Shown here: piece by piece, positions 15,316 through 20,790 of the stretch
Numbering within the stretch: the stretch's first letter is position 1
Layout: every line of letters starts with the position of its first letter
DNA from: an uncultured SAR116 cluster alpha proteobacterium
GTDB taxonomy: Bacteria > Pseudomonadota > Alphaproteobacteria > Puniceispirillales > Marisalimonadaceae
Length of the DNA: 64,000 nucleotides
Assembly (NCBI GenBank): GCA_902595145.1
Contig: CACJOU010000002.1
Location: 1-64,000, forward strand
Direction of reading: 5' to 3'
Made by a program: the position numbers and the translations under genes
Notes under the pieces: model-generated
What the model saw: the letters and a program-made list of their open reading frames with translations, nothing else
What the model was told of the DNA's origin: nothing
The model's database searches: none

Positions 15316-16656
15316 CTATTCACCACCTATCCAAATATATCCGTCTTTATCCATGATTGGTAATAAATCTAATGGTATTTCTTTAATGGCTTTGGTGAGT
15401 TCTACTGCTTCATCTGGCATCCAGTCTGCACTTGTTGTAACCCATTTTTTTACAGCACCAGTTCTTAAACAAAATTTACTATCGTGGAATGGGCATAAGA
15501 ACTCATTATCTGTTGTAATTTGACCCATTTCTAGTGGTAAATTCATATGAGGACATAAATTAGAAAATGCTGATAAATTATCGTCATTTCTAACAATTAA
15601 AATCTCTTCATTTTGATAACTAATCTTCTTTTTTTCACCATTATCTAAATCTTTAGATAGCATTACTTTATTCCAAAAAATACCCGATTCAAAAATTTTA
15701 TCATCTTGAGATTTTAAAGATTTTCCTTTAAGTTTTGAAATTTCATATAACGTAGATCTTTGAGAGGAGCCTTTTAATTTAACTCTTACAAAATCCTCAA
15801 CCTCAGCTCTATCTTCAATTTCTTTAAATGCCTCTTCTGAGATCAATAATCTTGTTTCAGCTTCTTTGTTAGCAGTTTCAACTCTACTGGCTATATTAAC
15901 AGATTGACCAATTATGCTTAAACGCTGATTTCCAGCATTTCCAAGCATACCTACTATTGCTTCACCATAATGAATACCTACTCTCACATCAAAATCAATA
16001 TTATAATTATCTAAAAAAACTTTTTTCTTGTTATCTACATCTTCTAATATTTCTATAGCGGCTTGAGTGCATCGATAAACTGAATCAATTTTATCGTCTA
16101 TGCCAAAAGCTGCAAGAAAGGCATCTCCAATAAAATTATTTATATCACCTCCATTTTTTTTTACTATTGTTCCCATATCATCAAAGTATCTATTTAGAAT
16201 ATACATAACGTCATAAGAGGGTAGTTGTTCACTTAAAGGTGTAAATGCGACTATATCTACAAACATGAGTGCAAGTTTTTTGGTGCTACCAATTGAACCA
16301 ACAGAATTCTTAGTCATTTGATTGGCTAAAATCATGTCTTTCTGGTCAAGCAATAATCTTTTGAGCTTTACATCGCCTTTAATTTTTGTTTGACATGCTA
16401 ATCGAATGTTATTTGGTAATTCTAGTTTTTCAGACAAGCTTTGCTCAGACTTGGTTTTTGGAGATAAATTCTCTTCTCCTTCTAAAATTTCAACCCTACA
16501 AGTAGAGCACATTCCAAGACCACCACAAGCATGAAGATGTTGTATGTCATTTCTTAATGACGCTGTTAAAATAGTTTCATCTTCTGAAATTGATATTTCA
16601 GTATTGTCTGGTGTTAAGTCGATTTTAAATATGTTACCATTCATAAATAAAATCAT
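15316..16656 (-). CDS. ferredoxin - class III nucleotide cyclase - Rieske fusion
   Basis: 446 residues in three domains. Residues 1-100 are a [2Fe-2S] ferredoxin with Cys44, Cys50, Cys53 (CGGLGMCSTC) and Cys88 (ACQT). Residues about 125-310 are a class III adenylyl/guanylyl cyclase homology domain with metal-binding Asp134 (FVDIVAF) and Asp178 (FIGDAF), and transition-state Asn254 and Arg258 (VNIASRVE). Residues about 325-445 are a Rieske domain with Cys368-Pro-His370 and Cys388-Pro-Phe-His391. No membrane segment, so cytosolic. The purine-selecting Lys/Asp pair is Asn174/Gln251 here, so substrate and even activity are uncertain. It probably couples redox or iron state to nucleotide signalling (inference). 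It is transcribed alone. Confidence 0.88.
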   Translation of the reverse strand: MILFMNGNIFKIDLTPDNTEISISEDETILTASLRNDIQHLHACGGLGMCSTCRVEILEGEENLSPKTKSEQSLSEKLELPNNIRLACQTKIKGDVKLKRLLLDQKDMILANQMTKNSVGSIGSTKKLALMFVDIVAFTPLSEQLPSYDVMYILNRYFDDMGTIVKKNGGDINNFIGDAFLAAFGIDDKIDSVYRCTQAAIEILEDVDNKKKVFLDNYNIDFDVRVGIHYGEAIVGMLGNAGNQRLSIIGQSVNIASRVETANKEAETRLLISEEAFKEIEDRAEVEDFVRVKLKGSSQRSTLYEISKLKGKSLKSQDDKIFESGIFWNKVMLSKDLDNGEKKKISYQNEEILIVRNDDNLSAFSNLCPHMNLPLEMGQITTDNEFLCPFHDSKFCLRTGAVKKWVTTSADWMPDEAVELTKAIKEIPLDLLPIMDKDGYIWIGGE

Positions 16657-19854: not shown

Positions 19855-20637
19855 TTATTTTTTTTTCTTTAGAGCCTTAGAAATTTCTTTTAATTGTTTT
19901 TCAATATAAAAAATTTTTTGATGTAATTCTTTTTCAGATATTTCATCTTCTGCATTACCATCGTTTGATATTTGTTGCATTGCATCAACGATTATTCCTA
20001 TAAATAAATTTAGCACTGCAAATGTTGTAACGAGAATGAATGGCACAAAAAACAACCATGCTAATGGAAATTCTTTCATTACTGGCCTAACAATTCCCAT
20101 TGACCAACTTTCTAAAGTCATAATTTGAAATAGTGTATACATTGAACTTCCAACTGTACCAAACCACTCATAAAATTTGTCTCCAAAAAAAGTAGTGGTC
20201 AGTACTGAAGAAATATAAAAGATCAAAACTATAATTGTGCCTACAGATAAAATACCAGGAATAGAAATAAATATAGCTTGTATTATCCTTTTCATTGACG
20301 GGACAATTGATAATAATCTCAATGTTCTGAAAATGCGGAAAGCTCTTAAAACTGAAAAAGGGCCCGATGCTGGAATTAGGGAGACTACAACTATTATAAA
20401 ATCAAAAATATTCCAGCCATCTCTAAAGAAACTGAATCTGTAAACAGTAATTTTGGCTAGTAATTCAATTGTAAAAATTGTTAAAGCTATAGTGTCAATT
20501 AAAGATAAATAAACACCATAATCTTTTTTTATGTTCTTGCTAGTTTCAAGACCAAGGGTAATTGCGTTGATTATGATTACTGATGTAATAAAAGTAACAA
20601 AATACTTATTTTCTATAATATTTTTTAATGTAGACAT
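19855..20637 (-). CDS. voltage-gated sodium channel, NaChBac/NavAb type
   Basis: 260 residues from ATG 20637 (a TTG at 20649 is in frame). Six membrane helices. The S4 sensor has Arg98, Arg101, Arg104 and Arg107 (LRAFRIFRTLRLL). The pore loop is TLESWSM at 174-180, identical to the selectivity filter of bacterial NavAb, with GIVRP after it. S6 is rich in Phe, Leu and Asn (AVLNLFIGIIVDAM) and is followed by an acidic neck and a C-terminal coiled coil (about 235-258), as in homotetrameric BacNav channels. It should pass Na+ inward on depolarisation; in marine bacteria this is linked to pH balance or motility. Confidence 0.93.
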   Translation of the reverse strand: MSTLKNIIENKYFVTFITSVIIINAITLGLETSKNIKKDYGVYLSLIDTIALTIFTIELLAKITVYRFSFFRDGWNIFDFIIVVVSLIPASGPFSVLRAFRIFRTLRLLSIVPSMKRIIQAIFISIPGILSVGTIIVLIFYISSVLTTTFFGDKFYEWFGTVGSSMYTLFQIMTLESWSMGIVRPVMKEFPLAWLFFVPFILVTTFAVLNLFIGIIVDAMQQISNDGNAEDEISEKELHQKIFYIEKQLKEISKALKKKK

Positions 20638-20790
20638 AAAACTAACCAAAAATTTTTAATAAGCTGTTTTTAATAAAAAACTTAAATTATACAAGTACAA
20701 AATTTTAAGCTTCTACAAATAGGTTTGCACTTTACGTTTAATTATTTCTTTGATTTAATTAATATTATCTAATTTTTATAGGTGAATTCA

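Follow-up and report, generated by a model that had tools for sequence, protein, structure and literature searches.

A predicted soluble class III nucleotide cyclase fused to ferredoxin and Rieske [2Fe-2S] domains in SAR116 and other Alphaproteobacteria

The stretch of DNA analysed here (the window; 64,000 nucleotides from an uncultured SAR116 alphaproteobacterium) contains, on its minus strand from 16656 to 15316, a reading frame of 446 codons and a stop that joins ferredoxin, class III nucleotide cyclase and Rieske domains in one chain (Table 1). An initial annotation of this DNA had described a single intact frame of 446 codons, and this is borne out, as the frame contains no internal stop. 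Its extent stands, and the strand, which that annotation left unstated, is minus; the start, however, is more likely to be the ATG at codon 5 than codon 1, because, of the 11 SAR116 copies in which the first codon was read (the window and ten others), 5 have ATT or ATA there and because the G020 copy has a stop upstream of codon 5. The frame is not a product of chance, since 200 base shuffles of the 3 kb around it produced no stop-free frame longer than 136 codons, compared to 473 for the real one. A crude hydropathy scan placed the sole hydrophobic segment of the window frame ahead of codon 5 and revealed no membrane segment from that codon onward. One such segment was detected in 12 of the 27 frames with this domain order, all from SAR116, and each of the 12 precedes or overlaps approximately the first six codons of the coding part within the stop-to-stop frame. 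Membrane insertion was therefore rejected for these proteins: the hydrophobic segments fall at or before the start, and the extension ahead of it varies among family members from none to 52 residues. A structure prediction from 15 close SAR116 sequences (91-99% identical to that of the window) reached a mean pLDDT of 32.7, too low for use.

Table 1. Domains and key residues of the ferredoxin-cyclase-Rieske frame, with coordinates in the window.
Feature	Position	Strand	Basis or remark
Whole coding frame, Fer2 - class III cyclase - Rieske	15316..16656	minus	likely start ATG codon 5 = 16644
Fer2 [2Fe-2S] ferredoxin domain, residues 15-93	16378..16614	minus	Pfam PF00111, 48.4 bits (cut-off 21)
Fer2 cluster loop C44-x5-C50-x2-C53	16498..16527	minus	invariant in nine representatives and in 57/57 aligned rows
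Fourth Fer2 ligand C88	16393-16395	minus	invariant in nine representatives
Fer2-cyclase linker, residues 94-123	16288..16377	minus	pN/pS 0.06
Class III nucleotide cyclase domain, residues 124-299	15760..16287	minus	Pfam PF00211 (Guanylate_cyc), 81.5 bits (cut-off 21.9)
Metal-binding Asp134	16255..16257	minus	alignment, invariant
Asn174, replacing the usual substrate-recognition Lys	16135..16137	minus	alignment
Metal-binding Asp178	16123..16125	minus	alignment, invariant
Ser247, second substrate-recognition position (mostly Thr in relatives)	15916..15918	minus	alignment
Transition-state Asn254 and Arg258 (N-x3-R)	15883..15897	minus	alignment, invariant
Rieske [2Fe-2S] domain, residues 328-406	15439..15675	minus	Pfam PF00355, 61.9 bits (cut-off 20.3)
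Rieske ligands C368-P-H370	15547..15555	minus	sequence and alignment, invariant in nine representatives
Rieske ligands C388-P-F-H391	15484..15495	minus	sequence and alignment, invariant in nine representatives

The ligands reported initially (Cys44, 50, 53 and 88, CPH at 368-370 and CPFH at 388-391) all lie at those places, the two metal Asp residues mentioned with them are D134 and D178, and the domain-profile check that had been proposed put Fer2, Guanylate_cyc and Rieske above their Pfam cut-offs, with neither Fe-S domain failing its profile. Among solved structures, the first match of the N-terminal Fe-S part was the ferredoxin 1i7h, the catalytic part matched CyaB 3r5g (phmmer, E 3.1e-20), and the C-terminal part matched the soluble Rieske ferredoxins 3gce, 8jng, 3dqy and 1fqt (phmmer, PDB). 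The Rieske fold probably extends past residue 406 towards residue 446. Rieske proteins of the bc1 type contain a disulfide-forming Cys pair adjoining the ligands. This pair is absent from the window protein (P0001), which reads CPHMNL and CPFHDS at its two ligand sites, and the best PDB matches of the domain are of the soluble ferredoxin type.

Within SAR116, almost the full query is matched at 15 loci in single-cell and metagenome genomes, including one (L015) that is split over frames. Among 61 related genomes searched, 17 of the 37 belonging to the window's genus contain a full-length match and G025 a split one, with the copy broken over three frames, and a profile search of the window's order matched 26 of 136 genomes, 18 of them in the window's genus (G1232 partial). 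The distribution of the gene within the genus is patchy, because three of its genomes that are each >90% complete (G013, G021 and G030) yielded no full-length match. The same order of Fer2, cyclase and Rieske domains (referred to below as a triple) also occurs at 38-45% identity in other Alphaproteobacteria, namely on Rhizobium plasmids and in families f182 and f264, and, preceded by a further two CDGSH motifs at the N-terminus (a quadruple), in genera g222, g566 and g568. The latter two, from the window's order, include eight matching genomes, one partial and four read.

In wider surveys, a class-wide sample of 385 genomes contained, besides the window's own, only G316 as a match reaching the Rieske part at E <= 1e-25, a phylum-wide sample of 398 genomes only G682, and a profile centred on G316 recovered G316 and G682 from the same number of genomes. 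Matches were found in 2 of 10 genomes from the order of G316, in 5 of 249 from that of G682 (G682, G840, G978, G867 and G1009) and in 5 of 148 from genus g287; counts from the large surveys are lower bounds, only 4 to 11 candidates having been scored per genome. Two of the g287 copies lie at nearly the coordinates of copies that tblastn located on plasmids in Rhizobium etli 8C-3 and R. gallicum R602sp; of the 166 matching plasmid records, no others cover 80% or more of the query. Viral and phage collections yielded cyclase-domain matches only and no triple (three loci by a two-peptide-pattern scan and eight records in a further search); class III cyclase domains were seen in Pelagibacter phage HTVC008M (KC465899.1:13148-13798) and in three IMG/VR contigs (L092-L094). 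A Desulfocapsa MAG contig (L016:37-237) begins with about 67 residues that are 91% identical to the SAR116 ferredoxin and continues with unlike sequence; this contig is probably chimeric.

The two N-terminal CDGSH motifs are present in six proteins that were read, from G316, G444, G1256, G1258, G1278 and G1282 (loci L058:6211-7722 for G316, L075 and L116-L119), and the Pfam profile zf-CDGSH scored 62-65 bits over two stretches in the three that were tested. These chains, of 503-514 residues, contain motifs for four [2Fe-2S] sites of three coordination types in addition to the cyclase. The G316 gene is located 3 nt after a guaB-like frame and 26 nt before a guaA-like frame (L058:4741-9287; frames named by eye), the same gua gene order is seen on the G444 contig, and this neighbourhood was found only in genus g222; the gua-like neighbours of the G316 gene hint at a link with guanine nucleotides. 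The SAR116 neighbours (an NMT1-type ABC transporter, a cupin and DUF6974) are syntenic across the genus, and none of them was seen next to the other triples examined. A functional link through neighbours was rejected, as the flanking genes differ between lineages and indicate no reductase or partner. The R. etli 8C-3 gene follows an aromatic ring-hydroxylating dioxygenase-like operon (L080:83-5689; names by eye), and no such cluster lies ahead of the R. gallicum gene. Elsewhere in the window, 19855-20649 on the minus strand encodes an ion-channel domain (Ion_trans, 145.7 bits), and the window's genome, which is 72% complete, includes three short cNMP-binding proteins above the Pfam cut-off (L089, L090 and L091; frames of 139, 117 and 164 residues).

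Nine representatives were compared, namely P0001 and eight homologues at 38-45% identity, among which there are some close pairs; the Fer2 and Rieske ligands, the two metal Asp residues and the transition-state residues Asn and Arg do not vary in this set. The four Fer2 Cys, two metal Asp and transition-state Asn and Arg are also kept in 57/57 rows of an alignment of the Fer2-cyclase part; the triple ('TRI') and CDGSH ('CDGSHTRI') groups were defined by ligand motif, so that their ligand counts hold by construction and Pfam serves as the independent check. By the latter, all three domains exceeded the cut-offs in P0001, in P0002 and in seven of a set of nine proteins, the other two being Rieske-less relatives. 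Judged by pN/pS, the SAR116 orthologues, which are 87-99% identical and have conserved neighbouring genes, are under purifying selection over all three domains and the linker: across 13 sequences (78 pairs), the ratio was 0.10 over the gene as a whole, with 0.14 in Fer2, 0.06 in the linker, 0.05 in the cyclase, which is the most conserved of the three domains, and 0.13 in Rieske. The spacing from C88 to the metal-binding D134 is 46 residues in 33/33 triples and quadruples (17 of which are SAR116 near-copies), 43 in 16 of 20 CyaC-like frames and 42 to 47 in 12 Rieske-less ones. This fixed spacing is consistent with a set coupling of ferredoxin to cyclase.

Class III cyclases coupled to a ferredoxin domain are already known. 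The available portion of PMC10463352 presents CyaC as a dimer with a [2Fe-2S] cluster indicated in a scheme, the heme-B of whose 6TM domain is oxidised or reduced by ubiquinone, with an effect on cyclase activity. The window protein resembles CyaC of S. meliloti in combining a [2Fe-2S] domain with a class III catalytic domain, and redox control is reported for CyaC in that same portion; in the CyaC-like frames that we collected, Fer2 likewise comes directly before the catalytic domain, and the Cys, metal and transition-state positions hold the same residues (19/19 rows). However, S. meliloti CyaC is membrane-bound through a hexahelical (6TM) diheme-B domain, whereas the window protein is predicted to be soluble, without a 6TM anchor, carries a C-terminal Rieske domain and lacks the substrate Lys. 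The window protein also stands apart in our tree from the CyaC-like branch, the rows of which do not include S. meliloti CyaC itself. In the available portion of PMC4821796, a ferredoxin domain between membrane and catalytic domains is described for 30 class IIIb cyclases, such as Rhodopseudomonas palustris Q132R4; here too the ferredoxin adjoins the catalytic domain, but these proteins have a 6TM anchor, and that portion mentions neither Rieske nor CDGSH. The portion of PMC2904730 that was available uses 'ferredoxin' only for a fold.

Closer in overall form are the soluble Fer2-cyclases without a Rieske domain (f191 genomes, G578, G126 and Hymenobacter volaticus WP_245126431.1), which are approximately 35-45% identical over Fer2 and cyclase and are the nearest outgroups in the tree; they differ in lacking the Rieske domain and in being mostly about 300-340 residues long. 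The closest solved sequences to the C-terminal domain, the Rieske ferredoxins of carbazole (3gce), toluene (3dqy/4emj) and biphenyl (1fqt) dioxygenases, have the CxH...CxxH ligands, but are stand-alone electron carriers, unlike the cyclase-fused domain of the window protein. The quadruples pair CDGSH with Rieske, as do the bacterial CDGSH-Rieske_2 multidomain proteins in the available portion of a CDGSH survey (PMC5859297), in the main text of which 'cyclase' occurs 0 times. No description of a Rieske-cyclase or CDGSH-cyclase was found in open-licence full text, among the matches listed and mostly judged by title and the start of the abstract; within this literature, the added [2Fe-2S] modules would be new. 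The first reading of this DNA had known of no such described architecture; the domain order is not common and, within the literature covered, not characterised, although it proved to be wider than one protein.

For the phylogenetic analysis of the Fer2-cyclase part, the final tree comprised 58 sequences, reduced from 65, and an earlier one 46, reduced from 57; matches with less than 200 residues of Fer2-cyclase and duplicate cores were left out, and near-identical SAR116 copies were dropped beforehand. Frames from outside the triples were divided into soluble ('SOL') and CyaC-like ('CYAC') groups by the length of the frame before Fer2 (200 residues), a crude rule. All 26 triple and quadruple rows clustered in one clade (100/98) with a single Rieske-less row, G126, and the quadruples formed one clade (100/99) beside the window's genus; for this tree, the tool flagged long branches and, in several rows including CDGSH ones, unusual composition. 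Constraining the 26 rows to one clade improved the score by 4.0 log units over the free search (p-AU 0.61); the 46-row tree agrees in outline, and there the same constraint lowered the score by 3.9 log units (p-AU 0.19). The Rieske-less ferredoxin cyclases come next outside the triple clade, the nearest outside clade consisting of seven rows, and the CyaC-like frames (20 rows), which have an N-terminal extension of >200 residues with 3 to 7 segments in the crude hydropathy scan, are set apart on one branch (100/100). The tree does not support an origin directly from CyaC through loss of its membrane domain, as the ferredoxin cyclases lacking that domain branch separately. Across 14 representatives, distances in the Rieske part correlated with those in the Fer2-cyclase part at 0.95, with 0 of 5000 permutations as high; by this measure, the two parts share a history. 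The tree would most simply be explained if a Rieske domain had fused once to a soluble ferredoxin cyclase and CDGSH had been gained or lost on a single occasion. No Rieske remnant was found by tblastn near the G126 gene (best E 0.079, chance level), and the other 60 of the 61 genomes searched in its family contained no such gene at E 1e-70. Immediately downstream of the G126 gene is a pair of frames that by eye resemble an IS91-like integrase and transposase (L057:7919-10018).

Asn174 and Ser247 occupy what we take to be the purine-base recognition positions of class III cyclases. The canonical pair for ATP is Lys with Asp or Thr, and the window protein departs from it. In the 57-row alignment, the pair is N/S in 17/17 SAR116 rows, N/T in two CDGSH and two Rhizobium rows, L/T in two rows (G682 and G840) and K/T in G867, G1009, G978 and G126 as well as in 19/19 CyaC-like rows, and the Rieske-less rows are mixed, with D/A commonest (6/12). 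Lys is also present in the triple of G1179 (g287), and the Lys motif occurs in four sibling cyclase frames of the window's genome, a fifth not matching the pattern used. Since the pair varies within the family, we take it to bear on specificity and not on class III membership. The product is probably cAMP, going by the family; with Asn in place of the substrate-site Lys in the window protein, it may instead be cGMP or another product.

The reading that we favour, with somewhat better than even confidence, is that of a soluble homodimeric class III cyclase whose activity would be set by its [2Fe-2S] centres, with the ferredoxin as the switch and the Rieske domain (and CDGSH, where present) as inputs. 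Cluster loading, redox control, the identity of the switch domain, the direction of control and dimerisation are what we infer in proposing it. As a class III cyclase, the protein would act as a homodimer, each chain having both the metal and the transition-state residues. The ferredoxin domain, at its fixed distance ahead of the catalytic domain, would be a switch adjoining the enzyme, and the C-terminal Rieske domain, of the soluble ferredoxin type, would supply a second input, either by relaying to the ferredoxin the electrons of a cytosolic reductase or partner, or by reporting its own redox or cluster state; the two CDGSH centres of some relatives would provide a third kind of input. The protein may work like the CyaC-type ferredoxin cyclases, but would sense the cytosol rather than the membrane quinone pool. 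Fer2 and cyclase stay together throughout, and the outer module varies between a membrane domain, nothing, Rieske, or CDGSH with Rieske. These roles for ferredoxin and outer modules are suggested because the ferredoxin keeps its fixed spacing while the outer module differs. A Rieske domain is not needed for a ferredoxin cyclase as such, because G126 and the seven rows of the nearest outside clade are without one. The proposal in the initial annotation of a soluble sensor thus holds as far as a soluble [2Fe-2S]-linked cyclase is concerned, given the fused domains, the absence of a membrane segment from codon 5 on and the complete sets of metal ligands; that electron or cluster state controls a nucleotide signal is suggested by analogy with Sinorhizobium CyaC.

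Several other explanations bear on parts of this reading. An annotation or assembly artefact, in which separate genes were joined by sequencing error, has virtually no chance of being correct: the split G025 copy and the chimeric-looking fragment at the start of the Desulfocapsa contig are in its favour, but the gene is intact in many separate single-cell and metagenome assemblies and on two complete Rhizobium plasmids and is conserved down to 38-45% identity, and these independent copies already refute it. We also consider it improbable that the protein has no signalling role, with a cyclase domain devoid of activity acting as the dimerisation scaffold of an electron-transfer protein. Loss of the substrate-recognition Lys in several lineages would fit such a scaffold; the invariant metal Asp and transition-state Asn and Arg residues, and the strongest conservation of the cyclase among the SAR116 domains, argue against it. 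Compatible with the favoured reading, though less likely than not, is a catalytic domain whose product or specificity has shifted, to cGMP or another cyclic nucleotide, through the Asn/Ser pair. The N/S, N/T and L/T pairs of triples and quadruples, set against K/T in all CyaC-like rows, point this way, as do the Lys motif in four siblings from the same genome and the position of the G316 gene between guaB-like and guaA-like frames (by eye). However, K/T in G867, G1009 and G978 and Lys in G1179 indicate that the change is not tied to the architecture, and the gua neighbourhood is confined to g222 (G316 and G444). Moreover, Rv1900c, a class III cyclase with Asn at the position of the substrate Lys, makes cAMP. 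The name Rv1900c has 0 occurrences in the text of PMC2447327.

A rather unlikely alternative to the proposed switch is a sensor of cluster integrity, in which the Fe-S domains report loss of or damage to [2Fe-2S] clusters by oxidants, nitric oxide or iron shortage, with no electron flow between domains; cyclase activity would then require every site to be occupied or, alternatively, every site to be vacant. Three [2Fe-2S] coordination types with one cyclase, as in the six CDGSH-bearing proteins read, are hard to reconcile with a single wire, and this combination of motifs (checked by Pfam in three) would fit a check of cluster supply. Against this, the best solved relatives of both Fe-S parts are mostly electron-transfer ferredoxins, and no conserved iron-metabolism neighbour was noticed across lineages. 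The favoured reading of a [2Fe-2S]-controlled soluble cyclase also has a bolder extension, which is less likely than not. In it, these proteins would be a previously undescribed class of multi-cluster cyclases, each soluble chain carrying between two and four [2Fe-2S] sites that belong to two or three coordination types. Such cyclases would combine distinct electron or cluster inputs in a single cyclic-nucleotide signal, perhaps with a changed nucleotide specificity, and so act as a coincidence detector for the iron-sulfur or redox state of the cell.

To our knowledge, the sensing of iron-sulfur clusters or of cytosolic redox state is described mainly for transcription factors and, among cyclases, for the membrane-bound CyaC. 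If the favoured reading is true, a direct and spectroscopically tractable link would be provided by a soluble cyclase that pairs its ferredoxin switch with a second centre of different chemistry. Two types of centre with distinct EPR signatures in one chain would allow each input to be followed and mutated separately, and because Rhizobium with copies of the gene can be cultured, the question can be tested beyond the uncultured marine SAR116. The architecture suggests a little-known route by which cells may turn iron-sulfur or redox state into a signal.
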